DNA of 64,000 nucleotides from Mucilaginibacter empetricola (lineage in GTDB: Bacteria; Bacteroidota; Bacteroidia; Sphingobacteriales; Sphingobacteriaceae), in contig NZ_JANUBZ010000001.1 of assembly GCF_024808665.1 (NCBI RefSeq), forward strand, positions 682,001-746,000, in the 5' to 3' direction. Positions 1,699 to 41,194 of the stretch are shown here, piece after piece. Position 1 is the stretch's first letter. Each line of letters starts with the position of its first letter. Under the pieces are notes generated by a model. The model was not told the DNA's origin. It made no database searches and saw only the letters and a list, made by a program, of their open reading frames with translations. Made by a program: the position numbers and the translations under genes.

Positions 1699-1732
1699 TG
1701 ATGGACATCACATTTTAAAATGAGCCATATTA
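1699..1732 (-). promoter_or_regulatory. Tandem Crp/Fnr-type operator upstream of ohyA
   Basis: On the plus strand TGATGGACATCA is followed, after a 10-base AT-rich spacer, by TGAGCCATATTA. The two TGA starts (1699 and 1721) are exactly 22 bp apart, the register seen in ten other places in this window. The gene-proximal site is a good TGA-N6-TCA palindrome; the distal site has a decayed outer half. It ends 50 bp before the ohyA start codon. Proposed target of the receiver-Crp regulator at 29468-30520 (inference). Confidence 0.75.
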
Positions 1733-1736
1733 TAAA

Positions 1737-2771
1737 TTAAGGCGCTGCAATTTCCAGCACTATCCTGCCGCTGATGTCACCTTTTTTCATCTCTTCAAAC
1801 ACCGAATTGATATCTTCCAGTTTAGCAGCGTGTACCGTGGTTTTTACTTTTCCTTCCAAAGCGAAGGAGATCGCTTCTTCCATATCCTTACGCGTTCCTA
1901 CAATCGATCCCCTGATGGTCGTGCCGTTGATGACCGTATCGAAAATTGAAAGGTCGAAACTTCCCGCAGGCAAACCATTCAGCGACATCACGCCTTTACG
2001 GCGCAACGCACCCAGGCCCTGTTTAAAAGCGATGGGAGATGGTGCGGTAACCAATACGCCATGCATGCCGCCGGTTTCCTTTTTTAGAAATTCACCCGGG
2101 TCCTGCTCTTTTGCGTTTACCGCCAGGTCTGCGCCAAGGCTTTTAGCCAGCGCTAATTTATCATCGGCAATATCGATAGCGGCCACATGCAGCCCCATCG
2201 CTTTGGCATACTGTACAGCCAGGTGGCCCAAGCCGCCGATACCTGAAATGGCTACCCATTCACCGGGTTTCGCATCGGTTTGTTTTAATCCTTTGTAAAC
2301 AGTGACACCGGCACAGATGATCGGAGCCATTTCTGTAAAATTTATCTTAGATGGGAAATGGGCTACGTACCTGGAGTCGGCTACCACATATTCCGCAAAG
2401 CCGCCGTCAACACTATAACCACCGTTTTGCTGGGTTTCACAAAGGGTTTCCCAACCGGTATAACAGTAGTCACAATGGCCGCAGGCACTGTACAACCAGG
2501 GCACACCAACAATATCTCCTTCTTTTATAAGTTGTACGCCATGGCCCATGGCGACCACATAGCCTAAAGCTTCATGGCCCGGAATTAAGGGCATCTTTGG
2601 TTTTGCGGGCCAGTCGCCCTGGCAGGCATGCAGATCGGTATGGCAAACGCCACAGGCGATCACTTTTACCAATATCTCGTTTTCACCAGGCTCTCTCACC
2701 GGCATCTCTTCAATATGCAGGGGCTGCCCGTATCCGTGGATCACGGCAGCTTTCATTTTTTTTGGGATCAT
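1737..2771 (-). CDS. adhP: Zinc-dependent alcohol dehydrogenase, AdhP type
   Basis: A 344-residue medium-chain dehydrogenase of the normal length for NAD-dependent ethanol dehydrogenases. It has catalytic zinc ligands GVCHTDLH (Cys43) and GHE (His66-Glu67), the four-cysteine structural zinc loop (Cys97, 100, 103, 111), and the Rossmann motif GIGGLG. It would reduce acetaldehyde or another aldehyde and so reoxidise NADH when respiration is limited, which fits the neighbouring fermentation genes and the Crp/Fnr-type operator upstream. Start taken at 2771; a second Met six codons in (MKAAV) is an alternative and is the commoner start in this family. The separate operator between this gene and ohyA suggests two transcription units. 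Confidence 0.93.
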   Translation of the reverse strand: MIPKKMKAAVIHGYGQPLHIEEMPVREPGENEILVKVIACGVCHTDLHACQGDWPAKPKMPLIPGHEALGYVVAMGHGVQLIKEGDIVGVPWLYSACGHCDYCYTGWETLCETQQNGGYSVDGGFAEYVVADSRYVAHFPSKINFTEMAPIICAGVTVYKGLKQTDAKPGEWVAISGIGGLGHLAVQYAKAMGLHVAAIDIADDKLALAKSLGADLAVNAKEQDPGEFLKKETGGMHGVLVTAPSPIAFKQGLGALRRKGVMSLNGLPAGSFDLSIFDTVINGTTIRGSIVGTRKDMEEAISFALEGKVKTTVHAAKLEDINSVFEEMKKGDISGRIVLEIAAP

Positions 2772-3110
2772 AATTTTTCAGTTTATTTTAAGATTGATGT
2801 TTGTGGTATTCATAATTCATCCAGACAACGTGCAGTACGGAGATTTCCTGTGTTGACATCATGTATTTGCTTGATTTGTGCGCCGTAAAGTTCAGCTGAT
2901 TAATAGCCTGCTGTGATGACACGCGTCACTTGAAAAGATGACGTGCATCACTTCGCAGCAACATATCCATGCAGGATCACATTACTCCTCCTTTCCGGTT
3001 CAATGCCTCCGATAATTAACTATTCCATGGCTGTCGTTTCCATAATGCGATGCAAAGGGTCGTATTAGAATTTGCAGGTCAAACCACGCAATTAGCTCGA
3101 TCAGTAGGAT
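2772..3110. other. Intergenic region between adhP and the cupin gene
   Basis: No convincing gene is seen here. The stretch separates two divergent units and holds the adhP operator (2917-2950); the motif-2 promoter of the cupin gene starts at 3111. Open frames crossing it are shadows without recognisable protein features. Confidence 0.5.
2917..2950 (-). promoter_or_regulatory. Tandem Crp/Fnr-type operator upstream of adhP
   Basis: TGACACGCGTCA (2917) and TGACGTGCATCA (2939) are both full TGA-N6-TCA palindromes, 22 bp apart and separated by CTTGAAAAGA. This is one of the best-preserved pairs. It lies about 145 bp from the adhP start codon, further than the usual 50-60 bp, so either the leader is longer or the true start site differs. 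Confidence 0.75.
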
Positions 3111-3722: not shown

Positions 3723-4169
3723 ATGGCACGTCCTGATAGCACCACTTTATTATGGCCCCTCCTGGTATATGGAACAGCCGTCGTATTATTAGTAAGCGGC
3801 ATGTTATTGTTGTCTTATTTCTTAGGCGAGAAACATAAGGAACCGGCTACAGGCGATGTATATGAAGGAGGAGTAATTGCCGACGGAACGGCCAGGATGC
3901 TCTTTCCGGTCCACTTCTATATCATCGCCCTGTTCTTTGTGATTTTCGACGTACAAGCCGTTTTTATTTTCGCCTGGGCAGTATCGGTTAAAACATTGGG
4001 ATGGGCAGGATATATCAGTATCTGCGTATTTATCGGCATATCAGCCTGCGTAATGATCTATGAATGGTCGATAGGCGCACTTGAATTTGGGCCCGACACA
4101 AAAAAGATCCTAGCGGCTTATCATCAAAAAATTAAAAGGAAGAAAAATTATGACGTGGTGGACAAGTAA
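3723..4169 (+). CDS. nuoA: NADH-quinone oxidoreductase subunit A
   Basis: A 148-residue protein with three membrane helices. The loop after the first helix ([16 protein letters not shown]) and the second helix region [21 protein letters not shown] carry the acidic and aromatic pattern typical of NuoA. It is part of the membrane arm next to the quinone site. First gene of a 13-gene operon; its end overlaps nuoB by 20 bp in another frame, which argues for translational coupling. Start at ATG 3723 after a long leader carrying motif 2. Confidence 0.95.
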
Positions 4170-4785
4170 GGTAAACGATCCTGCGGCTATCAGCGGGAAC
4201 AGTTCTTTTGAAGAAACTGTTCAACAATCCATCGTACTCACCAATATGGAAAGCATGGTGGCCTGGGGTAGAAAAAACTCTGTCTGGCCGTTCAATTTTG
4301 GCCTTTCCTGCTGCTACGTAGAAATGGCGACCAGTTTGACCAGTAAATACGACATCGCCCGGTTTGGCAGTGAAGTAATCAGGGGAACGCCCAGGGAAGC
4401 CGACATGATGATCGTGGCAGGAACTGTTTTTATTAAAATGGCCCCGGTGATCAGGCAGCTTTATGAACAAATGATGGCGCCCCGGTGGGTGATCTCCATG
4501 GGTTCATGCGCCAACTCCGGGGGTATGTATGATATCTACAGCGTGGTTCAGGGTGTAGATAAATTCATGCCGGTTGATGTTTATGTGACGGGCTGCCCGC
4601 CACGGCCTGATGCTTTTATGGAAGGCCTTTTGCTCATGCGCGACCAGATCGGCCAGGAAAGAAGGCCGCTTAACTGGGTAGTCGGCCCACAGGGAATCAT
4701 CAAACCGCCGGAAATTTCCTTAAAAGAAACCAAGAGAGAAGAAAGAATGCGGATGACCAGTTTGAGGTCACCCGACGAAATATAA
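4150..4785 (+). CDS. nuoB: NADH-quinone oxidoreductase subunit B (N2 cluster)
   Basis: A 211-residue peripheral-arm subunit holding the terminal iron-sulfur cluster N2, which passes electrons to quinone. The ligands are visible: adjacent cysteines in LSCCYVEM (54-55), Cys in [10 protein letters not shown], and Cys in [10 protein letters not shown]. The arginine-rich C-terminal tail is longer than in many homologues. Overlaps nuoA and is followed after 49 bp by the fused nuoCD gene. Confidence 0.96.
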
Positions 4786-4834
4786 CAATAAATAGTTTAC
4801 AGCAAAAAACAGCCACCTGTTTAAAAGAAATTAA

Positions 4835-6571
4835 ATGCCCGATATTGTTTCCATACTAAAAGATAAGTTCCCGCAGGGAATACTTTCTGTTCAACTCACG
4901 AAGGATGAATTTCCTACGTTATGGGCTGAAGCCGGAAGTATTATCAGCATACTCAGTTTTTTAAAAAAAGAAGCGGATCAACCTTACAGCATGTTATATG
5001 ACCTGACGGCTATAGATGAACAGGCAAAAAACAACCGGGGGGAACATCCTGAAAGCATTTACACCATCGTTTATCAATTGTTGTCCTTTGAACGGAATAG
5101 CTTTATTCGCATCAAAGTGCCTTTAACTGCTCAAACGGTCATTCCCTCGATCACAGCGGTCTGGCCTTCGGCCAATTGGTACGAAAGGGAGGTATATGAC
5201 CTCTTTGGTATAAAGTTCACCGGTCATCCCGACTTGCGCCGTATTTTGATGCCCAAAACCTGGATCGGCCATCCCCTGCAAAAATGCCACCCGGCCCGTG
5301 CTACCGAAATGGCACCATTTCAATTGCCGGAAGCAAAACAGGTGGCCGAACAAGCTGCCATGCAGTTCAAACCGGAAGAATGGGGGCTGGAAAAAACCAT
5401 CGCAGATGACGAATTGATGTTCCTTAACCTCGGGCCGCAGCATCCGGGTACACATGGTATTTTGCGGCTGGTGGTACAACTGGACGGAGAAGATATTGTA
5501 AATGTCGTGCCCGATATCGGGTTCCACCACCGGGGCGCTGAAAAGATGGGCGAACGCCAATCCTGGCATTCCTACATCCCCTATACCGACCGGGTGGAAT
5601 ACCTTGGCGGCGTGATGAATAATTTCCCGTATGTCATGGCGGTAGAAAAACTGGGCGGCATCATTGTACCCGAGCGGGCGCAGATGATCCGGATCATGAT
5701 GAGCGAATTGTTCCGAATATCCAGTCACCTGGTTTGGTACGGCACGTTTGCAGGTGACCTGGGAATGTTAAGCCCGGTATTTTTCATGTTTAATGACCGG
5801 GAAAAAGTATTCGATATAGTAGAAGCGATATGTGGTGCAAGGATGCATCCCAGCTGGTTTCGTATAGGGGGCGTTACACAGGACCTGCCTAACGGCTGGA
5901 AAAATTTAATTCAGGACTTTATTGACTACTTCCCTAAGCGCTTGGATGAATACGACGGGATGGTGATGAAGAACAGCATTTTCAAAGCCCGCACTGTTGG
6001 TATCGGAATTTATACCACAGCAGAAGCTATTGAGTGGGGTATCACCGGACCCGGCCTTAGGGCTACCGGCTTTGAGTGGGATTTCAGAAAAAAGCAGCCC
6101 TATTCGGGTTACGAAAATTTTGAATTTGATGTCCCGACCGGGAAGAACGGTGATTGTTACGACCGTGCGGGCGTACGGGTGGAAGAGATGCGCCAAAGCC
6201 TGCGCATCATCCAGCAGTGCGTGAACAATATGCCCGATGGGCCTTATAAATCCGATCACCCGCTGACCACCCCGCCGGTAAAGAAAAATACGCTGGAGGA
6301 TATTGAAACCCTGATCCATCATTTTTTAAATGTAAGCTGGGGGCCTGTTATTCCGCCCGGGGAAGCCTTCTGCAGCGTAGAAGCTACCAAGGGAAATAAC
6401 GGCTATTACCTGATCTCGGATGGTAATATCACTTCTTACCGGACCAGGATCAGGACACCCTCTTTCCCGGCCATGCAACTGGTGCCTTTAATAGCACAAG
6501 GGTATACTTTGCCTGATCTCATGGCGATACTGGGCAGTGTGGATTATGTATTATCAGATGTTGACCGCTAA
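4835..6571 (+). CDS. nuoCD: NADH-quinone oxidoreductase subunit C/D fusion
   Basis: A single 578-residue chain joins NuoC (about residues 1-180, with [24 protein letters not shown]) to NuoD (about 190-578, beginning [12 protein letters not shown]). NuoD forms the quinone pocket with NuoB. The fusion is known from Escherichia coli and some other bacteria; it differs from the separate genes usual in Bacteroidota core complex I operons, which supports this being a second, acquired copy. Its last codons are followed closely by nuoE. Confidence 0.96.
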
Positions 6572-6575
6572 AATA

Positions 6576-7058
6576 ATGACGATGACAGAGAAAGTTTTAA
6601 CCAGCGGAGATATCAGTGAGATAGAAAAGGCCTATCAGCATTTTCCGTTAAGGAGCGCGGCGTGTATTGAAGGCTTAAAGATCATACAAAAAAACCATCG
6701 CTGGGTTTCTGACGATGCGGTAAAGGAACTTGCGGAACTACTGGAAATGTCCCCGGCTGCGATTGACAGTATAGCCACTTATTACAGTTTGATATTTCGC
6801 AAACCAGTAGGTAGGCATGTGATCATGGTATGTGACAGCGTAAGCTGCTGGATTATGGGTTACGAAGGGATTTTAAATCACCTGAAAAACCGGCTAAACA
6901 TAGGCTATGGTGAAACAACGCAGGAAGACAGGTTCACCCTCTTATCGATTTGCTGCCTGGGTACCTGCGACCATGCGCCCGCTATCATGATCAATAATGA
7001 CCTGCACCGCGATCTGACACCTGATAAACTCGATGCGATCTTAGAAACCTACAAATAA
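6576..7058 (+). CDS. nuoE: NADH-quinone oxidoreductase subunit E
   Basis: A thioredoxin-fold [2Fe-2S] subunit of the NADH module. The four cluster cysteines are visible as C-x4-C (VCDSVSCW) and C-x3-C (CCLGTC). The frame is open from a GTG at 6537 inside nuoCD, but the ATG at 6576, four bases after the nuoCD stop, gives the family-like start MTMTEKVL; a second ATG follows two codons later. About 160 residues, the normal length. Confidence 0.93.
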   Translation: MTMTEKVLTSGDISEIEKAYQHFPLRSAACIEGLKIIQKNHRWVSDDAVKELAELLEMSPAAIDSIATYYSLIFRKPVGRHVIMVCDSVSCWIMGYEGILNHLKNRLNIGYGETTQEDRFTLLSICCLGTCDHAPAIMINNDLHRDLTPDKLDAILETYK

Positions 7059-7065
7059 TTGAACA

Positions 7066-8361
7066 ATGTATCCAATCAACGATAATATAGAGAAGCCACT
7101 AACGCAGCATATCAAAAATGATGGCAGCTGGCTCACGTTGAAAGAATATGAAAGTACCGGAGGCTACCAGGCTTTGAAGAAAGCGCTGCAAATGAAACCT
7201 GCGGAGATCATCCAGGTAGTGCTGGATTCCGGGCTGAAGGGCCGCGGCGGGGCAGGGTTTCCAACCGGGAAAAAGTGGTCAACCATCGATATCAGCGAAA
7301 ACGCTTCCTCCATAAAATATTTGGTCGCCAACGCGGACGAAATGGAACCGGGGTCCTTTAAAGATAGATTCCTCCTGGAGGGAAACCCCCACCAACTGAT
7401 CGAAGGGATCATCATTGGCGCTTATGCCATTCAGGCGAGTTTTAGCTATATTTTTTTAAGGTGGGCCTACCACCTGGCCGGAAAAGCCTTAACCCAATCT
7501 ATACAGGAAGCATATGACGCCGGGTATTTAGGAAAAAACATCGGGGGAAGCGGTTTTAACCTGGACATGTCCCTGCATATCAGCGTAGGACGGTACATGT
7601 GCGGAGAAGAAACCGCCCTACTCAACGCGTTGGAAGGTAAAAGATCCAACCCGAGGGCAAAACCTCCCTATCCCAGCAATAGCGGACTTTTTGGAAAACC
7701 TACGATTGTCAACAATGTGGAAACGTTAAGTAATGTTCCTCACATTATTATGAAGGGTGCAAATTGGTTTATGAACCTGAGCAAAACAGGTGAGGGCGGC
7801 ACCAAATTATATGGTGCGAGCGGCAAGGTAAAAAGCCCTGGTTTATGGGAGCTTCCTTTAGGTATTTCATTGAGGGAATTATTAGAAGATTACGCAGGCG
7901 GGATGGCCGATGGCTATCGATTTAAAGGCGTGCTACCGGGTGGAGGATCAACCGATTTTTTAGTGGAAGAACATTTGGACGTCGCGATGGATTATGCCAG
8001 CGTCGCCAAAGCCGGAAGCCGCCTCGGTACGGGCACCATCATCGTCCTGGACGATAAAACCTGCCCGGTGGGCATGGTGCATAACCTGGAACGTTTTTTT
8101 GCGCAGGAATCCTGCGGCTGGTGCACCCCCTGCAGGGAAGGCTTACCGTGGACGGCCAAAATATTGTATGCACTGGAAACCGGCGCGGGTAAAACGGAGG
8201 ATCTGAATATTCTGGAGTTTCACACGCATTATATGGCTCCCGGAAACACTTTTTGCGCATTGGCGCCGGGTGCGATGGAGCCGCTGCAAAGTGCTTTAAA
8301 GTATTTCAAAGCTGACTTTGAAATGCATATTCATCAACATAAATGTCCCTGGAACTCATGA
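7066..8361 (+). CDS. nuoF: NADH-quinone oxidoreductase subunit F (NADH/FMN-binding)
   Basis: A 431-residue subunit that oxidises NADH with FMN and holds cluster N3. It carries the glycine-rich GLKGRGGAGFPTGKKW, the FMN-binding region around YMCGEETALLNALEG, and the N3 motif ESCGWCTPCREG plus a later Cys near NTFCALAPGA. Presence of E, F and G shows a full NADH-oxidising complex rather than the 11-subunit ferredoxin-type version. The stop TGA overlaps the nuoG start (ATGA). Confidence 0.96.
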   Translation: MYPINDNIEKPLTQHIKNDGSWLTLKEYESTGGYQALKKALQMKPAEIIQVVLDSGLKGRGGAGFPTGKKWSTIDISENASSIKYLVANADEMEPGSFKDRFLLEGNPHQLIEGIIIGAYAIQASFSYIFLRWAYHLAGKALTQSIQEAYDAGYLGKNIGGSGFNLDMSLHISVGRYMCGEETALLNALEGKRSNPRAKPPYPSNSGLFGKPTIVNNVETLSNVPHIIMKGANWFMNLSKTGEGGTKLYGASGKVKSPGLWELPLGISLRELLEDYAGGMADGYRFKGVLPGGGSTDFLVEEHLDVAMDYASVAKAGSRLGTGTIIVLDDKTCPVGMVHNLERFFAQESCGWCTPCREGLPWTAKILYALETGAGKTEDLNILEFHTHYMAPGNTFCALAPGAMEPLQSALKYFKADFEMHIHQHKCPWNS

Positions 8362-11060
8362 TGGCGAAAATATTTATCGATGACAAGCCTTACGAGGTAG
8401 ATGGTAGCAAAAACTTGCTGGAAACCGCTTTATCTATCGGGCTCAATCTTCCTTATTTCTGCTGGCACCCGGCCATGCATTCGGTGGGTGCCTGCCGCCA
8501 ATGTGCCATTATTAAATATAAGGATGACGATGATAAAAAAGGGAAATTAGTGATGGCCTGCATGGAACCAGTAGCCGATAACCTGCATATTTCCATCGAA
8601 GCGCCGGAAGCACATGCCTTTCGGGCCGGAAATGTAGAAGCTTTAATGACCAACCACCCGCATGACTGCCCGGTTTGTGACGAAGGCGGCGAGTGCCACT
8701 TGCAGGATATGACGGTAATGACCGGCCATAATGAAAGAAGATATTGTTACACCAAGCGGACGCACAACAACCAGTATCTGGGACCTTTTGTGAATCACGA
8801 AATGAACCGCTGCATCCAGTGCTATCGCTGCGTCCGGTTCTATAAAGATTATGCGGGCGGTAAAGACCTGGATGTGTTTGCCGCGCATAACGATGTGTAT
8901 TTTGGCCGGCAGGAAGAAGGCGTGCTCGAAAGTGAATTCAGCGGCAACCTGGTGGAAGTATGCCCGACCGGGGTTTTTACTGATAAAACCTTAAAGAAAC
9001 ATTATACCCGTAAATGGGACCTCACCAATGCGCCTTCTGTTTGCCACCAGTGCAGTTTGGGCTGTAATATCATAGCCAGTGAAAGGTATGGTACGATCAG
9101 GAGGGTACTGAGCCGCTTTAATGGAGATGTGAACGGCTATTTTTTGTGCGACAGGGGAAGATTCGGGTACGAATATATAAATAGTAAAAATAGAATCATA
9201 ACACCTGCCAGATTAGTAAACGGATCATTCGCGGCTATAACAGCGGGCGATGCGGTTCAGGAAATAAAGGCCATCATCAATACGGAAAATAATACCATCG
9301 GCATTGGTTCGCCCAAAGCTTCGATGGAATCAAATTTTCTATTACGGGAACTGGTCGGCCCTGCGAATTTTTACGCAGGTGTTCCTGCCCGCGAGGGCAA
9401 ACTGATCCGGCAGGTCATTGCTATCCTGGACAATGGTAAAGTCAAGACCCCCTCATTAAGTGAGGCAAAAACTTATGATGCCGTGTTCATTCTCGGAGAA
9501 GATCTAACTAACACCGCGCCGATGCTGGCCCTGTCGCTGCGGCAAGCGGCGAAAAATGAGCCGAATGAAATAGCCAGGGCAGTAAAGATTCCTGACTGGA
9601 ACGATGCGGCGACGCGGGAAGCCGTGCAGGGGGCAACCGGTCCGTTCTTTATTGCCGCTGCCCACGATACGAAATTGGACGATATCGCTACCGGTATCTA
9701 TCATGCATCCCCTGATCAAATTGCGGGTTTTGGCAATGCCGTAGCAGGAAACATCAACAGGCAATTGAATTTTGTTGCCGCTGATGCGGAAATTGAAAAG
9801 TTATCCGATACCATTTCCGCCGCTTTGCTTGCGGCAAAAAAACCGTTGATCGTTGCAGGAACAAGCCTTTATAACGAAGCTATTGTCCAGGCTGCCGCCA
9901 ATATAGCTTACGCGTTGAAAGACCGGGGAAAGGATGCCGGGCTCATATACATTCTTCCTGAAGCGAATTCCATCGGATCGGCTCTGCTTGCGGATCAATA
10001 TTTAGAGGATGCTTTCGCTCAAGCCAGTCCTAAGGAAGCCAAATCAGTGATCATTCTTGAAAACGACCTGTATCAACGAATGGATAAAACGGCTACCGAT
10101 ACTTTTTTGCAATATTTCACAAACGTCATTTCGCTGGATTACCTGGAAAATGCGACCACCCGTAACTCCACTTTGCTACTGCCGGCCGGAACATTCGCGG
10201 AAGCGGACGGAACCATTATCAGCAATGAAGGCAGGGCACAGCGGTTTTACCAGGTTCATGTACCTAAAAATGACGTCAGGAGCAGCTGGAAATGGCTGGC
10301 TGAACTAATGGCTGCTTATGATAGTTCCCCGATAAATTTGGACGCCGTAATTGATCGTCTGACCGCTGCCTTCCCGGCCTTGCAGGCTATTCAATACGTG
10401 GCGCCTTCCGCCGGATTCCGGGAAGATACCCAAAAAATCCCGCGGTCACCGCAACGCTATAGCGGCAGGACAGCCATAAATGCGGATATGCATGTAAGCG
10501 AGCCACGGCCGCCTGCTGACCCCGATTCTGCTTTATCTTATACTATGGAGGGATATGTGGGCATACCTCCTCCTGCTTTGACGCCATTTTACTGGTCTCC
10601 GGGATGGAACTCCGCACAGGCGATCAACAAATACCAGATCGAGGTAGGCGGTGAACTCCACGGGGGAAATCCGGGCAAACGTCTTTTTGAGCCTGACCCA
10701 AACAGTAAAGCTGCATATTTTAATAGTACGCCATCAGCCTGTTCCCCAAAAGAAGGGCAATATATGGTACTGCCGCTTTACCATATTTTCGGGTCCGATG
10801 AACTGAGCGCGCAAAGTCCTGCCGTAGCGGAGAGGGTACCACAGCCATATATCGCATTAAATGATTCAGATGCTGGTAAAGCAGGCATTGTTGAGGGAGC
10901 CATCATAGAAATCCTGTTAAGCGGAAACAAAAAGTGGCTGCCAGTTAAATTAAAAATGGGCCTGCCGCAAGGCACAGCCGGATTGCCGAAAGGCCTCCAG
11001 GAGACCGCTGGAATAATATATCCTTTTTACACCACCATTAAAATCGCCGGTAATGATTGA
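8358..11060 (+). CDS. nuoG: NADH-quinone oxidoreductase subunit G
   Basis: About 900 residues. The N-terminus is a plant-ferredoxin-like [2Fe-2S] domain ([19 protein letters not shown]), followed by the His-Cys3 cluster region ([12 protein letters not shown]), two further four-cysteine sites around [10 protein letters not shown] and VCPTGVF, and a molybdopterin-oxidoreductase-like C-terminal part starting at CHQCSLGCN. It carries electrons from NuoF towards NuoB. Candidate ATGs are at 8343, 8358 and 8361; 8358 was chosen because its ATGA overlap with the nuoF stop is typical of coupled genes and MMAKIFID matches the family start. Confidence 0.94.
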
Positions 11061-12012
11061 CATCCTGCTGCATATCGCATTGGTTATTGGTATCATGCTT
11101 GGGCTGGTAATGATCGCGGCCGGCTTGATCTGGCTGGAAAGAAGAACACTTGCCTTATGGCAGGACCGTTACGGGCCAAACCGGACCGGCCTTTTTGGAA
11201 CCCTCCAGGTCGTGGCGGATATGATCAAGATATTTTTTAAGGAAGATTGGATACCCCCGTTTGCCGATAAGAAGATATTTGTTGTCGCCCCGGCTATTTT
11301 GATGATATCCATTTTGCTGAGTTTTGCGGTTGTTCCCTTTACGCCGCTAATAGGCGTAGTGAACCTCAACATTGGCCTTTTATTTTTCCTGGGCATGTCC
11401 TCTTTCGGGGCTTACAGCATTGTTCTTGCCGGCTGGTCATCCAATAATAAATATTCACTGATCGGGGCGGTACGCGCAGCATCGCAGATGATCTCTTACG
11501 AAGTATTCATGGGCCTGTCACTGATGGGCGTGGTTATGCTTTCAGGCTCCTTCAATATGCGTGATATTGTGCTGGCGCAGCAGGGCAGATGGTTTTTTAT
11601 CCCGCAATTTTTAGGGTTCATTATATTTTTTATTGCAGGTATCGCGGAAACACGGCGCCTGCCCTTTGACATTCCGGAAGCGGAAAGCGAACTGGTGGCC
11701 GGTTATCACTCAGAATATTCGGGGATGAAATTCGGGATGTTCTTCGTCGGGGAATACCTGGGGATCACGCTGATCTCTGCCATGACCACTACCTTATTTT
11801 TGGGGGGTTGGCTGGGGCCTGCCTTTTTACCGCCGATTTTTTGGTTCCTGATCAAGATGTTCGCGTTTATCCTGTTCTTCATCCTGTTAAGGGCATCGTT
11901 GCCAAGACCAAGGTCGGACCAATTGATGGCATTAGGCTGGAAAGTCCTCTTTCCGCTTTCCATGCTCAATGTACTGGTAACCGGGGCGCTTGTTTTATAT
12001 TTTAAATTATAA
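11053..12012 (+). CDS. nuoH: NADH-quinone oxidoreductase subunit H
   Basis: A 319-residue, eight-helix membrane subunit at the junction of the two arms. Diagnostic pieces are [18 protein letters not shown] near the N-terminus, the acidic loop [20 protein letters not shown], which lines the quinone channel, and [18 protein letters not shown] near the end. Its start overlaps the end of nuoG by 8 bp. Confidence 0.96.
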
Positions 12013-12030
12013 GGTCATAAATCATTAATC

Positions 12031-13378: not shown

Positions 13379-13384
13379 AAGAAT

Positions 13385-16863: not shown

Positions 16864-16864
16864 G

Positions 16865-19421: not shown

Positions 19422-19455
19422 TGACGCCGCTCACTATTTAACATGATTTTCATAA
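19422..19455 (-). promoter_or_regulatory. Tandem Crp/Fnr-type operator upstream of the first Usp gene
   Basis: TGACGCCGCTCA (19422) and TGATTTTCATAA (19444), 22 bp apart with spacer CTATTTAACA. The gene-proximal site is intact; the outer site keeps one good half. The site is 55 bp from the start codon. Confidence 0.7.
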
Positions 19456-22670: not shown

Positions 22671-22704
22671 TGACGCTGCTTATAGTTTAAAATGACTTTA
22701 ATCA
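22671..22704 (-). promoter_or_regulatory. Tandem Crp/Fnr-type operator upstream of the YceI-porin operon
   Basis: TGACGCTGCTTA (22671) and TGACTTTAATCA (22693), 22 bp apart with spacer TAGTTTAAAA. Here the gene-distal site is the perfect one and the proximal site has one weak half. Confidence 0.7.
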
Positions 22705-23790: not shown

Positions 23791-23824
23791 TGACGTCATT
23801 TACTTCTTAAAATGAGTCTACTCA
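23791..23824 (-). promoter_or_regulatory. Tandem Crp/Fnr-type operator upstream of the second Usp gene
   Basis: TGACGTCATTTA (23791) and TGAGTCTACTCA (23813), 22 bp apart with spacer CTTCTTAAAA. The second is a perfect longer palindrome, AATGAGT-CT-ACTCATT. Confidence 0.7.
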
Positions 23825-28097: not shown

Positions 28098-28131
28098 TGA
28101 TGGCCAGCATAGTAAAAAATGATAATGGTCA
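28098..28131 (-). promoter_or_regulatory. Tandem Crp/Fnr-type operator upstream of ackA-xfp
   Basis: TGATGGCCAGCA (28098) and TGATAATGGTCA (28120), 22 bp apart with spacer TAGTAAAAAA. The distal site is a full palindrome, the proximal one is weaker in one half. A second pair for the divergent sensor kinase gene lies only 55 bp away. Confidence 0.7.
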
Positions 28132-28186: not shown

Positions 28187-28220
28187 TGACCCAGGTCACT
28201 TTTTAAAATGAACTTAATCA
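28187..28220 (+). promoter_or_regulatory. Tandem Crp/Fnr-type operator upstream of the sensor kinase operon
   Basis: TGACCCAGGTCA (28187), a perfect palindrome extending to AAGTGACC/GGTCACTT, and TGAACTTAATCA (28209), 22 bp apart with spacer CTTTTTAAAA. It lies 63 bp before the kinase start and is followed by TATAATG. If the co-encoded Crp-type regulator binds here, the system is autoregulated. Confidence 0.75.
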
Positions 28221-28283
28221 TATAATGCACAGTTGTTAATGATGATATTTGTTAAATGTGATCATATCAGGTCATGATCACCT

Positions 28284-29471
28284 ATGGAAAACACCGCGCT
28301 GTTAATCGCCATTATCCAAAATGCCATTGACGGCATTATCACAATTGATGAAAATGGCCTGATCGAACTCATTAATCCCGCTGCCTGTACGCTTTTTGAT
28401 TACGAGTCTGATGAAGTTATCGGCAATAATATTTCCATGCTGATGCCGCAGCCCGATAAGGACGCGCATGACGATTATATTTTTCGCCACCGGCAAACGG
28501 GCAAAGCAAATATCATTGGGATAGGCCGGGAGGTAGTTGGATTGCGAAAAGACGGCACCCTATTCCCGTTCCGGTTAGGATTAAGCGAGGTACAGCATGC
28601 AGGACGAAAGATATACACTGGATTTATCCATGACCTGAGCAAGGAAAAGGAAGCCGAGCGGCGGCTTAAGGATTATGCATCAAACCTGGAAGAACTGGTT
28701 GAAGAAAGGACGTTGTCACTGAAGAAGACAGTCAAGGCTTTAGAATATGCGAAAGAAGAGCTTAGCCTGTCGCTCGAAAAGGAAAAGGAGTTGGGGCAAT
28801 TAAAAAGCCGCTTCGTTTCCATGGCTTCCCACGAGTTCCGGACACCGCTGACCTCGATAAAACTTTCGGCTTCCCTGATTGAAAAATATGCCGAGCCGCT
28901 GGCAAGCCCCAACGTAAGCAAGCATGTAAATAAGATAAAACATGCGGTGAGCAGCCTGACCATCATCCTGAATGATTTTCTCTCTCTGGAAAAGCTTGAA
29001 GCCGGCAAAGAAGAAGTCAGCTATAACGAATTCGACCTGGTTAAGTTTTCAGAGGAGATCGCCGAAGAGATGCAGGTGATGGCCAAGCAAGACCAAAATA
29101 TTATCTACCAGCATACCGGGACCAAAAGCACCATCAACCTGGACGAAAAACTGTTGAAAAACTGTATTAATAACCTCATCACCAATGCGATCAAATATTC
29201 AGGAGAAAATACCTTTATCGATTTCACTACTGAAATTGATGATCAGCACTGTATCATTACTGTTAAAGACAATGGCATCGGAATCCCGGAAGCTGACCAG
29301 AAACATTTGTTTGAAGCGTTTTTTCGGGCACATAATACCGGGACGATACCGGGTACGGGCCTGGGGTTAAATATCGTGACGCGCTATGCAGGCCTGATGA
29401 ATGGCAAAGTCGATTTTAAGAGCGTAATTAACCAGGGCACATTATTCACTATTACATTCCCACTATCATGA
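28284..29471 (+). CDS. FixL-like heme-PAS sensor histidine kinase
   Basis: A 395-residue soluble kinase: PAS (about 5-120), coiled linker (120-172), HisKA with ASHEFRTPL (His183), and HATPase with N box (LITNAIKYS), DNGIGIP and GTGLGL. The PAS domain closely follows rhizobial FixL. Aligned by eye to Bradyrhizobium FixL, the heme-ligand His200 is His62 (AHDDYI), Arg206 is Arg68, the distal Arg220 is Arg82 (IIGIGR), and the pocket Leu236/Ile238 are Leu98/Leu100; His214 is Asn76. This predicts an O2- (or NO/CO-) responsive heme sensor, an inference from residues. No membrane segments, as in some FixL. The gene overlaps the regulator gene by 4 bp. Confidence 0.9.
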   Translation: MENTALLIAIIQNAIDGIITIDENGLIELINPAACTLFDYESDEVIGNNISMLMPQPDKDAHDDYIFRHRQTGKANIIGIGREVVGLRKDGTLFPFRLGLSEVQHAGRKIYTGFIHDLSKEKEAERRLKDYASNLEELVEERTLSLKKTVKALEYAKEELSLSLEKEKELGQLKSRFVSMASHEFRTPLTSIKLSASLIEKYAEPLASPNVSKHVNKIKHAVSSLTIILNDFLSLEKLEAGKEEVSYNEFDLVKFSEEIAEEMQVMAKQDQNIIYQHTGTKSTINLDEKLLKNCINNLITNAIKYSGENTFIDFTTEIDDQHCIITVKDNGIGIPEADQKHLFEAFFRAHNTGTIPGTGLGLNIVTRYAGLMNGKVDFKSVINQGTLFTITFPLS

Positions 29472-30520
29472 ACAAAACAGTGCTGATCATTGAAGACAAT
29501 AATGATATCCGCGAGAATATCTTTGAAATACTGCAATTGGCAGACTATATCGTTTATGAGGCCCAAAACGGCAAAGCCGGTGTGGAACTTGCAATTAAGC
29601 ATAAGCCCGATATTATCCTGTGCGATATCATGATGCCCGAACTCGACGGCTATGGCGTATTGTATATACTGAACAAAAATCCGGAAACCGCAAATATTCC
29701 GTTTATTTTCCTGACCGCAAGGGCGGAAAGGCTCGATCTCCGAAAGGGAATGGAAATGGGCGCTGATGATTACCTGACCAAGCCCTTTGACGATATGGAA
29801 CTTTTAAACGCCATTGAAATCAGGCTTAAAAAAAAGGTTGCCCAGCAGGATTTTTACAGCAAATCCCTGGACCGCCTGAGCAGCCTGATATCCAACAAGG
29901 ACGGCCTTGCCGAACTGAAAAAGATCATCCAGGAGCGCCGCACCAGGCAATTCAAAAAGGGACAGGTCATTTATTATGAGGGGGATAAAGGTGCTGTCCT
30001 GAACTTACTGATCAGCGGGAAGGCAAAAAGCGTTAAACTCGCTACAGACGGACGTGAACTGATGACCGGGATTTACGCGCCCGATGACTATATGGGTATC
30101 AACTCCATGCTATTAAACGAGGCGCATTCAGATACCGCGACCGCGATGGAAGACAGCCTGGTTTGCCTGATCCCCAGGGAGCAACTGGAAGAATTAATGA
30201 ACCGTTATCCCGACGTGGCAAGGGAGTTTATAAAACTGCTGGCTAAGGACGTCAAGGACAAGGAAGAGCACCTCCTGCAGATGGCCTACAACTCTGTAAG
30301 AAAAAAAATGGCTGATGCGATGATCCGCTTGCAAAAACAGCAAAATGAAGGAGATGAGGGATTTAAGATCACCCGCGAAGACTTGGCCGCCATGACCGGG
30401 ATGGCCACCGAAACGGTTAGCCGAACGCTGTCAGATTTCAAGGATGAAGGATTGATCGAAAAGAAAGGCAGCGTTATCAAGGTGATCAACTTCGAAAGCC
30501 TGCTAAAAATGAAAAACTAA
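29468..30520 (+). CDS. Receiver domain fused to Crp/Fnr-type transcription factor
   Basis: A 350-residue protein in three parts. First is a CheY-like receiver (1-120; phospho-acceptor Asp53, Thr83, Lys105). Next is a cyclic-nucleotide-binding-like beta-roll (about 155-245, with YYEGDKGAVLNLLISGKAK). Last is an HTH_Crp domain (280-345) whose recognition helix reads TETVSRTLSDF. The E-x2-S-R pattern (Glu315, Ser318, Arg319) is that of Fnr/FixK proteins, which read TGA-N6-TCA half-sites, exactly the operator found eleven times here. No Fnr-type N-terminal cysteines, so sensing is left to the partner kinase. It looks like a FixJ receiver and FixK in one chain. Confidence 0.92.
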   Translation: MNKTVLIIEDNNDIRENIFEILQLADYIVYEAQNGKAGVELAIKHKPDIILCDIMMPELDGYGVLYILNKNPETANIPFIFLTARAERLDLRKGMEMGADDYLTKPFDDMELLNAIEIRLKKKVAQQDFYSKSLDRLSSLISNKDGLAELKKIIQERRTRQFKKGQVIYYEGDKGAVLNLLISGKAKSVKLATDGRELMTGIYAPDDYMGINSMLLNEAHSDTATAMEDSLVCLIPREQLEELMNRYPDVAREFIKLLAKDVKDKEEHLLQMAYNSVRKKMADAMIRLQKQQNEGDEGFKITREDLAAMTGMATETVSRTLSDFKDEGLIEKKGSVIKVINFESLLKMKN

Positions 30521-32512: not shown

Positions 32513-32546
32513 TGACCAGGATCATTTTTATAGCTGACTCCGCTCA
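32513..32546 (+). promoter_or_regulatory. Tandem Crp/Fnr-type operator upstream of ldhA
   Basis: TGACCAGGATCA (32513) and TGACTCCGCTCA (32535), 22 bp apart with spacer TTTTTATAGC. Both sites are full TGA-N6-TCA. It ends 50 bp before the dehydrogenase ATG and starts 23 bp after the ATPase stop. Confidence 0.75.
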
Positions 32547-32596
32547 TCCTTATCCGCGGCCGTTAACGGTAATTTCGATGAATAAATACTTCACCA

Positions 32597-34064: not shown

Positions 34065-34092
34065 AAAGGGGTTTGAGCGATCAGGCCCCTTT
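34065..34092. terminator. Hairpin between the ldhA unit and yoaK
   Basis: AAAGGGG (34065-34071) pairs with CCCCTTT (34086-34092) around a 14-base loop, followed on the plus strand by CTTACTTTT. It overlaps the last codons of the convergent yoaK gene. It could stop the ldhA transcript; the U-run is poor. Confidence 0.4.
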
Positions 34093-34827
34093 CTTACTTT
34101 TAGTTGGGTATTGTAACCGGTGGAAAAGGTGCGTCATCCTGATCCTGAAAATATCCGAAAGCAGCGTGAATATCAAAATAGCGACCGGTACGAGAAAGGC
34201 ATGAAATCGAAAGCAGCGGAACAGATAAGCGCCCGCTAATGCACCACAGAGGAAAAAGAAGATGATGGCACACCTGAGTTTTATTCGCGTTTGCAGGGCA
34301 GCCTTCTCTGGAGTGTTTTGCTGCAGGACCTGGGCCAGCTCTATTCCCAGGTCAGTGAAAGTTCCGGTAAGGTGCGTGGTACGCACCACGGAGCCTGAAA
34401 CGATAGAGACCAGCGAATTTTGCATACCCATCGCAAACAGTAAGCTCCCGGCAAAGAGTTCTTTTGAAACTAAACTATGATCGTAGCGGGTACCCGTTAG
34501 GGATACGGTTAAGAGTATTCCGGCTTCGATCAATATCGGAATAACATAAGAATAGCGCTGGTTACGCCCCAGCCGGGAAACGATAAGGCTGGATATAAAA
34601 GCACCGGCTAAAAACAGGAACATCCATAGTGCCACAACCCTTGCCGTCTTCCAGTCCTCCATGGCGATCCGTTCGGCGAAAAGTGCGGCGTGACCCGTTA
34701 CGTTAGTCGTCAACACGGCAAACGCCAGGAAGCCCGCTGCATTCACAAAACCTGCCGTTATGCCAAGCAATGTCGCCAGTTTAACATTATGGCCATAGGT
34801 TCTTTTTGTACCCAGGTGCCTTAACAT
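34081..34827 (-). CDS. YoaK/DUF1275 family membrane protein
   Basis: A 248-residue protein with six predicted helices. The DUF1275 pattern is clear: TAGFVNAAGFLAFAVLTTNVTGHAA near the N-terminus, ALWMFLFLAGAFISSLIV, AMGMQNSLVSIVSGSVVRTTHLTGTFTDLGIELAQ in the middle. Function in bacteria is not established. No Crp/Fnr-type operator is seen; an 18-bp perfect palindrome lies 12 bp before the start codon. Confidence 0.88.
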   Translation of the reverse strand: MLRHLGTKRTYGHNVKLATLLGITAGFVNAAGFLAFAVLTTNVTGHAALFAERIAMEDWKTARVVALWMFLFLAGAFISSLIVSRLGRNQRYSYVIPILIEAGILLTVSLTGTRYDHSLVSKELFAGSLLFAMGMQNSLVSIVSGSVVRTTHLTGTFTDLGIELAQVLQQNTPEKAALQTRIKLRCAIIFFFLCGALAGAYLFRCFRFHAFLVPVAILIFTLLSDIFRIRMTHLFHRLQYPTKSKKGA

Positions 34828-34911: not shown

Positions 34912-36234
34912 TTACTTGTTTTTAGCACTTAAGCCCAGCGCCAGGGTGTTGGTGACATTGTATAGCTTCATTTCCAGGTTTTGATCCAGCTGGTAAACAT
35001 CATTATACATCACGAGGACACCTTCATCCACGGCGCAGGTAATATAGGTTACTTTAAAAGGTATTTTTTGCTTTAAGACAAATTTCCGCACTTCATTTTT
35101 CTTCAGGGCTTTAGCGATCAAAGGAACACTTTTAAGGTTGCCGTCATTGACCAGCAGCATCGCTGCCAGCTTTTGCGCGTGTTCAACATTCAATGTTCCG
35201 TTACTCACAGCCCGGTCTTCCTGTTTAAAAGACGACTGTTCAGGGGTATTTCCAAGATAAATTCCCGCTCTGTTATAAAAAGTGAAGTAGATTCGCCTGG
35301 AGGACGCACTCCAGCCTTTTGATATTTGGATGGTGTTAATCGCACTCTCCAATGAAGCGGTCGGGGTAGCAGGATTTCCAGCTAAAACCCGGAACTGATA
35401 AATGGTATCCGGCCGGTGGAATTCAAGCATAAAAGAAGGGATGTTTACTGCGATATAGGTGACGTTATCGTTTTCTGACCAACGCAGGCGTTCCATATTA
35501 ATGGCCATTTTTTTAATATCTGACTCAGGGAACTCATAGTTGTCACCGGTATATACGCCGGTAATTAAATGCATATGATACTGAAGGTTGGTGTAAGCCT
35601 TTGCCTTCGGCTGTACATTTTCGATGGCACTCAAGAAATCTTCCTGATTTAAGGTACTTAAGGCATTTGCCAGTTCAAGATCCGCATGACAGCCATTAAA
35701 GTTCCCGGCATCCAATTTCTCAGGCGGAAAATTTGCATTAAGCTTTCCAAAATGCAGGTTATTGATCAGGGCGATCATCGCGTCAGTCAACAGGATATCA
35801 TAATCCGCCTTTTGGCTTTCGGTTACCTTTTCCGGGTGTTCGACCAGCAGGTGTAATTGGTCATAGGTCAGTTCCGCCGGATGATAGTCCGTTGGAATCA
35901 GACCGTATTGTACGACGCAATCCAGCAATAACATCGCATCCCAGTTATGCGTTTGTAACCTTTCCGGTGCTATCCATACCAGCTTATTGCCGTTTTTTGC
36001 ATAGAGCCGTTCCACCGAAAGCGGATAAAGCAAGCCCCCAGTTGTTTTAGCGGTTTGGATTGCCGAGATTACGGAGCTATCCGGCCAGGCAACAAGCGTG
36101 TATTTGGTTGTTGAATGTTGCGCAGCAGCTTTTGCTGCCCCTGAGATTTGCAGGAAAAAGAAGATAATGCCCATGATGACACCGACCTTTAATCCTAATT
36201 TTAAAAACGGAATTACTTTGATGGGCTTTTGCAT
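34912..36234 (-). CDS. L,D-transpeptidase-like protein lacking catalytic residues
   Basis: A 440-residue protein with an N-terminal membrane/signal helix (about 11-34), the scaffold domain of YcbB-type L,D-transpeptidases (SVERLYAKNGNKLVWIAPER; peptidoglycan-binding-like helices) and a YkuD-like domain (about 257-420). The usual active-site stretch IYLHDTP...RAxSHGCIRV is recognisable here as IYLGNTPE and RAVSNGTLNV. The His before DTP is Gly328, the SHGC His is Asn345, the catalytic Cys is Thr347 and the Arg is Asn349. It cannot work as a transpeptidase by the known mechanism and may act as a binding or regulatory paralogue in the periplasm. A tandem Crp/Fnr-type operator lies 50 bp upstream. 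Confidence 0.85.
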   Translation of the reverse strand: MQKPIKVIPFLKLGLKVGVIMGIIFFFLQISGAAKAAAQHSTTKYTLVAWPDSSVISAIQTAKTTGGLLYPLSVERLYAKNGNKLVWIAPERLQTHNWDAMLLLDCVVQYGLIPTDYHPAELTYDQLHLLVEHPEKVTESQKADYDILLTDAMIALINNLHFGKLNANFPPEKLDAGNFNGCHADLELANALSTLNQEDFLSAIENVQPKAKAYTNLQYHMHLITGVYTGDNYEFPESDIKKMAINMERLRWSENDNVTYIAVNIPSFMLEFHRPDTIYQFRVLAGNPATPTASLESAINTIQISKGWSASSRRIYFTFYNRAGIYLGNTPEQSSFKQEDRAVSNGTLNVEHAQKLAAMLLVNDGNLKSVPLIAKALKKNEVRKFVLKQKIPFKVTYITCAVDEGVLVMYNDVYQLDQNLEMKLYNVTNTLALGLSAKNK

Positions 36235-36284: not shown

Positions 36285-36318
36285 TGACAACAGTCATTAT
36301 AAAAACTGATCTAAAACA
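36285..36318 (-). promoter_or_regulatory. Tandem Crp/Fnr-type operator upstream of the transpeptidase-like gene
   Basis: TGACAACAGTCA (36285), a full palindrome, and TGATCTAAAACA (36307), 22 bp apart with spacer TTATAAAAAC. The outer site keeps only one half well. Confidence 0.7.
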
Positions 36319-36357: not shown

Positions 36358-37212
36358 TTAATCCTGAAAAATAAGCAAGGGAATACTAACCTGCCCCGCC
36401 ATTTTTTTGGTGTCGCTGCCGTGCAGCAGATCATCAAAAAAACCATGCCGCCGGTGCACCATCGCCAGCAAATCTACCTGCCCGTGCTCGCATAACCAGT
36501 CCAGACCCCTTTCTGTCCCCGCGTTTTTGACCATCCGGTAATAAATGTTTGGATAGTTGGCGGTTCCTGACAATTCTACTAAAAAGTTTTTGATCCAGTG
36601 CTCAAACTCCGGCGACTGGTACTTGCCGTCATAAACATGGGTTAGCAATATCTCCGCATTCAGTTGTTTGGCCAGCGGGATCAGGATATAGATAAATTTT
36701 AGGTCATCATCTGGATTTTTAAAATCGGTAGCAAAAGCGATCTTTTTGATCGGCGCGAACTTCGCTTTTGGCGGGATCAGGATTAAGGGCTTGTTCGTAC
36801 TGTCGATAACATTTTTGCAATGGTCTCCGAAAAGAAAAGAACTTAATCTCCCGCGGTGGTGGGTACCCATCAATATCAGATCAATATCCTGGCTTTTTAC
36901 AAAGTGGGCTACAGCATTGGTTACGGTACCCGCCTCGCTGGCAAAGGTTATCGCCGGCCTGAACGTTGCAGAATGATCATTTTGTTCCATGTGCGCTTTC
37001 AACCGTTTTAGCTCTTTTTCACTGTCCTCCAATAAGGTATCGCTTTCTTCCATCGGCAAGGCAACCATGCCGGACTGTGGTATTTCGGCGGGAACGATGA
37101 TGGCATTGCCCAACACGATATCTGCCTTTATTTGCTTTGCCAATTGATAGCCATATTCAGCCGCATGTTTCGCATCCGTCGTAAAATCAATTAAAAAGAG
37201 TACTTTTTTCAT
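36358..37212 (-). CDS. Universal stress protein, tandem UspA domains
   Basis: Two UspA domains in 284 residues. The frame extends to an ATG at 37257, but the ATG at 37212 gives MKKVLFLIDFTTDAKHAAEYGY, which matches the starts of the other two stress proteins and leaves the operator (37270-37303) at the usual distance of 57 bp. Domain one keeps the nucleotide-binding pattern LILMGTHHRGRLSSFLFGD, and domain two starts at KKIAFATDFKNPDDDL. It resembles the protein at 18515 more than the one at 22860. Confidence 0.9.
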   Translation of the reverse strand: MKKVLFLIDFTTDAKHAAEYGYQLAKQIKADIVLGNAIIVPAEIPQSGMVALPMEESDTLLEDSEKELKRLKAHMEQNDHSATFRPAITFASEAGTVTNAVAHFVKSQDIDLILMGTHHRGRLSSFLFGDHCKNVIDSTNKPLILIPPKAKFAPIKKIAFATDFKNPDDDLKFIYILIPLAKQLNAEILLTHVYDGKYQSPEFEHWIKNFLVELSGTANYPNIYYRMVKNAGTERGLDWLCEHGQVDLLAMVHRRHGFFDDLLHGSDTKKMAGQVSIPLLIFQD

Positions 37213-37269
37213 TTTTTGAGGTTGATGATTTACAATGGTAAAAATGATCAATCCCATGTGGCAAAATAA

Positions 37270-37303
37270 TGATGCCCGTCATTATTTAAGATGATTCTGC
37301 CCC
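37270..37303 (-). promoter_or_regulatory. Tandem Crp/Fnr-type operator upstream of the third Usp gene
   Basis: TGATGCCCGTCA (37270), intact, and TGATTCTGCCCC (37292), 22 bp apart with spacer TTATTTAAGA. The outer site has lost its second half. It lies between divergent genes and could in principle also serve the gene at 37448. Confidence 0.65.
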
Positions 37304-40800: not shown

Positions 40801-41093
40801 GCAAAGACCCCTTGATCCATATAGATATCTCCAGGAATAATGAACACATCATATTGTCTGTACAGGATAATGGAAAAGGGATCGCAAAAAATGAGATGAA
40901 TATCATATTCGATATGTATGGCAGGCTGCATAAGGAAGTTGACGGGCAGGGGATCGGACTTTACCTGGCCAAAAAAATAATTGATGCCGCGCATGGAAGT
41001 ATTATCGTTGAGAGCGAAATAGGAAAAGGCAGTAAATTTATTATCTACTTAAAAACTGAAGCGTTAAAGGTTAACACGGCGGTTCTGGCCTGA
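37887..41093 (+). CDS. CheB-CheR-PAS-histidine kinase hybrid
   Basis: A 1068-residue fusion. CheB methylesterase (about 1-190; GASAGGMEEI with the catalytic Ser, later VVLSGLGSDGTEG); CheR methyltransferase (about 205-470; WVAGCATGEEAYSLG for S-adenosylmethionine, then ISCRNLLIYM). A long coiled coil of near-heptad repeats follows (about 640-720; NEEMQSTNEEMQSVNEEL), then a PAS-like segment, and a HisKA/HATPase pair (TASHDLLAPL; DNGKGI; GQGIGLYLAKKI). No chemoreceptors or flagellar genes are near, so it is probably a stand-alone sensor whose methyl-cycle domains have been reused. A Bacteroidota-like -7 element, TATCTTTG, lies about 70 bp upstream; no Crp/Fnr-type operator is seen. No response regulator is adjacent. 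Confidence 0.92.
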   Translation: MLKVDPLYIIAIGASAGGMEEINSFFDHTPLDGVSYIIIQHLSPDFKSRMVELLAKHSKLVVSEAKNAMKVMSNQVYLIPNDKFMTIKGGKLYLSDKETVKGPHLTINAFFKSLADDYGKKVIGVVLSGLGSDGTEGIKAIKKAGGMVIARNPETTEFGSMPSNAIATGLVDFVLEPALMPDAIEDYVKQGGELIADDKDDELHIKAIIDLIKERSPLDFSDYKLPTLLRRTKRRAAYGNFNSLASYLDFLKVTPAEVEALTKDFLISVTSFFRDKEAFTYIQKHILPTILAGLATGEELKMWVAGCATGEEAYSLGILIAEQLTGKYKDTVVKIFATDIDSAALAHAGKGIYNGEITKSVSEDRLDKYFIKESEHFRVRQEVRSMIIFAQHDLVKNPPYCNMQFISCRNLLIYMTPILQKKIFSMMLFGLKREGYLFLGSSENPIPVIKNLEVVNKKWKIYKNLKAKRDVSFDVFALPELLDIKRTPSIAHDILSQNYGNSISEAMQVSLADDQDYLAICIDEHNLVVKAYGDKKKYLLQEYFTTNLVELLPKPLAIAFNTLIKRVGQTKKLVSVSGIKIKNGITIVKVRLSICPLKVNKGEQKLLMVTFNPDTSDASPVKDDIIFDEKIYHDQYTENLEEELKEMKIKLHSAYERLDASNENMQSFNEELISANEEMQSTNEEMQSVNEELHTINADYQLKNKELLEINDDLNNYFRSNINGQLFINNELLLMKFSPGTVKQINLLETDIGRPLSNISTNIKFETIIEDIKQVLAEGIVITKEIETNNGKWYQIMTMPYVQQIDQKRNGAIVTFNDITELKSTQLDLDNKNASLTRINADLDNFVYTASHDLLAPLANIETSIGVMNLIKVADPGMLKFLAIINSSVKKFRTLIKDISVIARLEGDMLNMEMVDMAEIIKNIEWSLENKIKSSGAIITQRLEVKEILFSKKNLRSILFNLVSNGIKFNDSKDPLIHIDISRNNEHIILSVQDNGKGIAKNEMNIIFDMYGRLHKEVDGQGIGLYLAKKIIDAAHGSIIVESEIGKGSKFIIYLKTEALKVNTAVLA

Positions 41094-41160
41094 TTCGCTG
41101 CCTGCCGCCTATTTATTCCGATACTATTTACTAAAAGCCGTTTCAGGCGTCGCATAATAG

Positions 41161-41194
41161 TGATGCCTGTCATTTTTTCATATGACGATAGTCA
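41161..41194 (+). promoter_or_regulatory. Tandem Crp/Fnr-type operator upstream of the PNPOx-CHAD-Mla operon
   Basis: TGATGCCTGTCA (41161) and TGACGATAGTCA (41183), 22 bp apart with spacer TTTTTTCATA. Both sites are full palindromes, one of the best pairs. The site is 87 bp from the ATG at 41282. Confidence 0.75.

Follow-up and report, generated by a model that had tools for sequence, protein, structure and literature searches.

The rhizobial FixL-FixJ-FixK pathway and the mycobacterial DevR/DosR dormancy regulon are the closest described counterparts of the system considered here, and its promoters are best compared with class II Crp/FNR-dependent promoters, in which the activator box is centred near -41.5, the textbook class II position for Crp/FNR proteins. 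The response regulator FixJ consists of a receiver followed by a LuxR/GerE-type helix-turn-helix (HTH) domain. FixLJ and FixK have been described for rhizobia (PMC4999443). In the mycobacterial regulon DevR binds cooperatively to closely packed sites, the start-proximal one of which overlaps the -35 element (PMC3029386), and one of the genes with the strongest induction under hypoxia encodes the universal stress protein Rv2623 (PMC2682197). We analysed a 64,000-nucleotide stretch of Mucilaginibacter empetricola DNA (assembly GCF_024808665.1, contig NZ_JANUBZ010000001.1, positions 682,001 to 746,000; "the window"), for which a preliminary description had reported eleven pairs of TGA-N6-TCA boxes 22 bp apart. 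It is likely that these tandem sites serve as operators in a single low-oxygen regulon encoded on a genomic island, and that a FixL-like kinase and a receiver-Crp protein encoded there act on them. Positions without prefix are those of the window; C1 is the contig holding the window, C3, C4 and C8 are further contigs of the same genome (5.83 Mb in total). The kinase and the regulator are encoded by two adjacent genes:

28284..29471, plus strand: PAS histidine kinase with a FixL-like haem-PAS domain (His in HDDYI, Arg in IIGIGR), HisKA and HATPase_c
29468..30520, plus strand: response regulator with receiver, cNMP-like domain and Crp/FNR-type HTH, the proposed regulator of the tandem operators

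The PAS domain of the kinase matches that of Bradyrhizobium FixL (BjFixL) with E=2.4e-31, with a His and an Arg at corresponding places, which we take to be the haem-proximal His and the Arg of the IGIGR motif of FixL. Among the aligned kinases (from 74 of the 80 receiver-Crp loci compared below, plus the genome's two) 72 of 76 retain the His and 75 of 76 the Arg. With the NCBIfam equivalog model of rhizobial FixL the kinase scores 153 bits at a cut-off of 850, i.e. it is FixL-like and falls outside the equivalog. Judged from the sequence, it is quite likely that the kinase binds haem and senses oxygen. In two Dyadobacter loci (L126 and L127) the kinase beside the receiver-Crp gene lacks the proximal haem His (Gln in L126), and a one-mismatch tandem pair is found at the regulator's stop codon.

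In the regulator Pfam recognizes Response_reg, cNMP_binding and HTH_Crp_2, and no GerE (LuxR-type HTH) domain, which sets it apart from FixJ. With FNR and FixK it shares the Crp-type HTH accompanied by a cNMP-like domain, and its NCBIfam scores remain under the cut-offs (95.3 of 228 bits for Fnr, 82.8 of 300 bits for the Caulobacter FixK). The pair thus appears to resemble FixL with FixJ and FixK fused, because the haem-PAS of the partner kinase is of FixL type and has both the haem His and the Arg. As in the rhizobial pathway, a FixL-type haem-PAS kinase, a receiver and a Crp/FNR-type DNA-binding domain come together in one pathway; in contrast to it, the receiver and Crp domains share one protein without a LuxR-type output, so the two-step cascade would become one step. 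Also different are the boxes, which seldom carry the TTGA flank, and the targets, which look like fermentation and stress genes rather than nitrogen fixation genes. With DevR/DosR the island would have a hypoxia-linked two-component regulator in common; as far as the cited papers describe it, DevR is a NarL-subfamily regulator that acts with other kinases on other boxes, whereas the output domain here is of Crp type and not NarL. In a literature search limited to titles and abstract openings, with most subscription journals outside its reach, no paper dealt with a receiver-Crp protein partnered by a FixL-type kinase in Bacteroidota.

All eleven pairs are present where they had been described, and all eleven lie between long open reading frames (ORFs), which we took as genes. 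The accompanying statement that every box reads TGA-N6-TCA proved too strong. Defining a strict pair as two such boxes 22 bp apart and counting mismatches over the 12 fixed bases, we found that only four of the eleven are strict in both boxes, six have one mismatch and one has two:

1699..1732, minus strand: tandem operator, one mismatch, toward the MCRA-family gene 56-1648; -7-like TAGCTTCG at 1668-1675
2917..2950, minus strand: tandem operator, strict, toward the zinc alcohol dehydrogenase gene 1737-2771; -7-like GAACTTTA
19422..19455, minus strand: tandem operator, one mismatch, toward the universal stress protein gene 18515-19366; -7-like GTACTTTA; weak with the relatives' covariance model described below (E=0.30)
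22671..22704, minus strand: tandem operator, one mismatch, toward the YceI gene 21997-22602 and the genes after it; -7 element TACGTTTG at 22640-22647; weak with the relatives' model (E=0.11)
23791..23824, minus strand: tandem operator, one mismatch, toward the universal stress protein gene 22860-23738; missing among the relatives'-model matches listed
28098..28131, minus strand: tandem operator, one mismatch, toward the acetate kinase gene 26844-28049 and the phosphoketolase gene 24432-26840; -7 element TAGGTTTG at 28067-28074; relatives' model E=0.03
28187..28220, plus strand: tandem operator, strict, toward the FixL-like kinase / receiver-Crp operon; -7-like GATATTTG at 28244-28251
32513..32546, plus strand: tandem operator, strict, toward the D-2-hydroxyacid (lactate-type) dehydrogenase gene 32597-33577; -7-like TAATTTCG at 32570-32577
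36285..36318, minus strand: tandem operator, one mismatch, toward the Scaffold-domain (L,D-transpeptidase-like) gene 34912-36234 and the DUF1275 gene 34081-34827
37270..37303, minus strand: tandem operator, two mismatches, distal box degenerate, toward the universal stress protein gene 36358-37257
41161..41194, plus strand: tandem operator, strict, toward gene 41264-41704 and the genes after it (pyridoxamine-phosphate-oxidase-like 41751-42203 and on)

The distances to the listed start codon are 48-69 bp in nine cases and 145 bp at 2917; at 37270 we measured 12 bp, where the true start is likely a later Met than the listed one. We propose that operator 28187 serves autoregulation of the kinase / receiver-Crp operon.

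The spacing of 22 bp stands out from all others. There are 37 strict TGA-N6-TCA sites in the window, and the strict pairs up to 80 bp apart are four at 22 bp and one each at 67 and 76 bp. When up to one mismatch was allowed, 11 pairs (ten of those described before and a weak one at 37346) were found at 22 bp and at most three at every other spacing between 12 and 80. Two hundred dinucleotide-preserving shuffles of the window gave on average 0.14 and at most one pair at 22 bp, which bears out the claim that the arrangement is far beyond chance; together with the spacing counts and the reversed-sequence controls, the shuffles rule out pure chance as the cause of the pairs.

The preliminary description had proposed a genome scan as a check on whether the sites cluster in this island. 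The whole genome contains nine strict pairs, six in C1:677862-723194 (four in the window and two to the left of it) and three in C3:176981-179362, and no occurrence of the reversed pattern. With up to one mismatch there are 33 places against four in the control, 18 in these two islands and 15 elsewhere. A covariance model made from the eleven window sites ranked these at the top by construction, and its weaker matches were several in the islands and many outside (150 of 6140 first-look candidates scored). More telling was a covariance model built from 37 sites of other genomes, with no sequence of the genome under study (150 of 3441 candidates scored); because L053 and L054, two of the loci it draws on, are closely related, some of its promoters are not fully independent. 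Fifteen of its 16 matches with E<0.01 are in the islands and represent 14 operators, one being matched on both strands; the first match outside is C8:191207 (E=0.009), after which weak island and outside matches are mixed. The matches therefore concentrate in the two islands with receiver-Crp genes and hardly occur elsewhere, as the proposed check had asked. A matrix made from 67 sites of relatives and run on 206.5 kb of the genome gave all eleven window sites more than 12 bits, and nothing above 8 bits in the reversed control. It also finds C1:676092, 677862 and 680072, C3:175931, 176981, 177033, 179329 and 181887, the site at 37346 and a weak one at C8:191238. The count of eleven is thus right for the window and too low as a total: there are about 20 sites, 14 on C1 and six on C3, the sixth C3 site (C3:180206-180265) coming from the relatives' covariance model.

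The C3 island is a paralogous mini-island. Thirteen of its 14 tested ORFs have a relative among the window proteins, with identities of 74% for the kinase, 70% for the regulator, 78% for YceI, 85% for a membrane protein and 72% for DUF1275. Each island encodes one of these two regulators, and the genome has no other full-length receiver-Crp protein. In the second island the lactate-type dehydrogenase gene (L011:14398-14793) codes for just 131 amino acids, though a strict tandem operator precedes it.

The same spacing is found in relatives. In 80 receiver-Crp loci (1.5 Mb) we counted 75 strict pairs at 22 bp, eight at 23, seven at 66 and at most seven at any other spacing up to 119; boxes with other inner widths (2-5 and 7-12) gave at most five pairs at any spacing, and the reversed sequence contained a single pair in all, at 113 bp, and none at 22. 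Seventy of the 75 pairs are intergenic by the ORF calls. They precede genes for lactate-type dehydrogenase, FixL-like kinase, universal stress proteins, BON-domain proteins, alcohol dehydrogenase and others. A single orthologous site supplies 40 of the 75; its first bases are the stop codon of the receiver-Crp gene. A first box stands at this stop codon in 53 of the 80 loci: 40 have the strict pair at 22 bp, four a one-mismatch pair, six a pair at 23 bp and three the first box only. Window operator 32513 is the counterpart of this site, separated from the regulator gene by a P-type ATPase gene.

The pairs also co-occur with the regulator. We surveyed 301 genomes of the family, of which 246 have a receiver-Crp match at E<=1e-60 and the other 55 were counted as lacking it; the cut for strong matches (E<=1e-112) was picked after viewing the values, and the P values of the survey ignore phylogeny. 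The survey yielded 693 strict pairs against 29 of the reversed pattern. The mean number of strict pairs was 3.63 in the 123 genomes with a strong match, 1.67 in the 123 with a weaker one and 0.75 in the 55 without, and at least one pair was present in 116, 97 and 24 genomes of these classes, respectively. Within the genus, 61 of 65 genomes with the receiver-Crp gene have a pair, and none of the four without it. The choice of the receiver-Crp protein as the regulator, made in the preliminary description, is thus backed by co-location and co-occurrence; binding by that protein remains an inference, and we consider it very likely.

The relation of the pairs to the promoter was examined with sites of the window and of relatives, oriented by our own choice toward the nearest gene start. 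A TAnnTTTG motif starting 23 nt beyond the proximal box is present in 30 of the 40 stop-codon (LdhA) sites and in eight of 38 other sites (11 from the window and 27 of relatives, two of the latter before LdhA). At the matching place TTTG occurs in 17 of the 38, against two at the next best offset; in the window sites TTT is at the right place in nine of eleven. In a flavobacterium with mapped start sites TAnnTTTG covers -12 to -5 (PMC9723704). Because of the fixed 23-nt offset and this mapped position, the proximal box would be centred near -41.5 and the distal one near -63.5, a class II activator geometry that is predicted from the relatives' sites and the flavobacterial mapping. Compared with the known class II promoters the island sites add the abutting box near -63.5, and their promoters belong to the -7 type of Bacteroidota.

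The boxes differ from FNR-type sites in the base before TGA, which, read on both strands of the 22 window boxes, is A in 29, G in 12, C in three and T in none of the 44 half-sites. The window pairs are thus not TTGA-N6-TCAA boxes as used by FNR and FixK; the FnrN/FixK consensus is TTGANCNNGATCAANG, of TTGA type (PMC4999443). The region C1:586-626 kb, which has other Crp-family genes, shows T in 50 of 72 flanks of its TGA-N6-TCA sites, like that consensus. It was found because a scan with a single-box pattern pointed there; as a definition of the regulon, a single box plus -7 element was rejected as too loose (83 places at up to one mismatch against 40 in the control). Within this region (L146, L147) we counted 19 TTGA-N6-TCAA sites, along with several small genes of the Crp family; some of these sites share the operators' distance to a -7 element.

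Our proposal for the mechanism is as follows. Oxygen bound to the haem would keep the FixL-like kinase off; when oxygen drops, the kinase would phosphorylate the receiver-Crp protein on its receiver domain. This protein would then bind as two adjoining dimers to the same face of the DNA, at the boxes near -63.5 and -41.5; the proximal dimer would replace the -33 element and, acting as a class II activator, recruit RNA polymerase to promoters of the TAnnTTTG type. The targets would be its own operon and the genes for phosphoketolase, acetate kinase, lactate-type, alcohol and aldehyde dehydrogenases, universal stress, YceI and BON-domain proteins. We regard activation at low oxygen, rather than repression, as likely, and cooperative binding by two dimers as reasonably probable.

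It must be noted that several observations weigh against this reading. Only two of the eleven window sites (22671 and 28098) have a perfect TAnnTTTG. The flank base is not strictly kept: T is found in 3 of 20 positions in the genome's five other strict pairs and in 34 of 300 in the relatives (15 of 160 in the 40 stop-codon pairs, 19 of 140 in the 35 others), so the T flank is rare, not absent. The orthologous site has 23-bp spacing in the six loci mentioned above, only two of nine loci titled Flavobacterium contain a strict pair, and four of the 65 genus genomes with the gene have none. Four of the 24 pair-containing genomes without a receiver-Crp match hold at least three pairs. The draft G023, a genome of the family, has five 22-bp pairs, of which some are accompanied by a -7-like element at a similar distance, and a search of it at E<=1e-30 gave no receiver-Crp gene; therefore either another Crp-family protein can use such operators or the draft misses the gene. 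The studied genome itself has 35 cNMP-binding-domain matches, the two receiver-Crp proteins included, and encodes FNR-like proteins with N-terminal cysteines at C4:4259-4954 and C4:15930-16622.

It is conceivable that the operators serve a stand-alone FNR/Crp-type regulator encoded elsewhere, such as one of these two C4 proteins, and that the receiver-Crp gene is merely one of the targets. The strict pairs in genomes lacking receiver-Crp, and the FNR-like T before TGA in some pairs, would fit this; however, the sites are concentrated around the two receiver-Crp genes, whereas the C4 genes have no such cluster, and the T flank is scarce in the window, in the genome's other pairs and in the relatives, unlike in FnrN/FixK sites and unlike in the C1:586-626 kb region of the same genome, hence we consider it unlikely. 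Even less probable is that the pairs are repressor sites, at which two dimers block the promoter until a signal frees them. The proximal box lies where the -33 element is expected, which would suit steric repression too, but a centre at about -41.5 is the position of a class II activator, and fermentation and stress genes would be expected to be on at low oxygen. That the constant spacing merely reflects copies of a few duplicated promoters, and not selection for geometry, is very improbable. In its favour, the second island is a partial paralogous copy, and a single orthologous site accounts for the 40 pairs of relatives at the stop codon. When that site is left out, however, the peak persists, with 35 pairs at 22 bp against two at 23, which rules out one duplicated promoter as the sole cause; in addition, the inner bases and the surroundings vary from gene to gene while the spacing and the core bases hold in several genera.

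The regulon of the FixL-like kinase and the receiver-Crp protein seems to reside on a mobile element, as suggested by two features near the right end of the window:

57628..58851, minus strand: tyrosine-type phage integrase family protein of 407 amino acids, 93% identical to a second copy at C1:669650-670873
59246..59320, minus strand: tRNA-Asp gene; the repeat in common with the left end of the proposed element stops at 59267, inside the gene

The segment 57577-59267 is repeated at C1:669599-671287 (L010:5599-7287) with 90% identity over 1692 nt, and the repeat ends inside tRNA-Asp. From this integrase-bearing repeat we propose the limits C1:671288-741267; with these, the island resembles an integrative element some 70 kb in length at tRNA-Asp, enclosing all 14 C1 sites. 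A third short copy of the repeat end is present at C1:655144-655170, and perhaps there is a smaller element to the left of the main one. The C3 island ends near a tRNA-Arg gene; comparison of tRNA-Arg with the rest of that stretch (L011) revealed no att repeat of at least 14 nt. The C1 island also contains a complex I operon (3723-18301, recognized by Pfam in six of its ORFs); the nearest pair, 2917, scores best toward the alcohol dehydrogenase gene and away from complex I. An F-type ATPase operon at 49604-56297 has an AtpR subunit (Pfam), the mark of N-type ATPases.

Beyond the preliminary description, this work adds the FixL-like character of the kinase, a predicted class II geometry of the promoters, the proposed integrative element, a second island on C3, the operator starting at the stop codon in relatives and the rarity of the T flank. 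Tentatively, and with somewhat more doubt than confidence, we suggest that the island is a travelling, self-contained oxygen regulon: an integrative element at a tRNA gene with its own haem sensor, a one-protein FixJ-FixK-like regulator, its own operator code and target genes for fermentation, stress and respiration. Because its code is its own and mostly lacks the FNR-type T flank, such a regulon might largely avoid cross-talk with FNR-type sites of the host.

If our interpretation is correct, it would provide Bacteroidota with a defined oxygen-sensing pathway that has a readable operator code, by which the regulon can be catalogued across many genomes. Since the boxes stand at a fixed distance from the -7 element, class II activation can be tested directly on Bacteroidota promoters. 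The two-step FixL-FixJ-FixK cascade would appear here as one fused step, and the island would represent a parallel to the mycobacterial hypoxia regulon, made from other parts.

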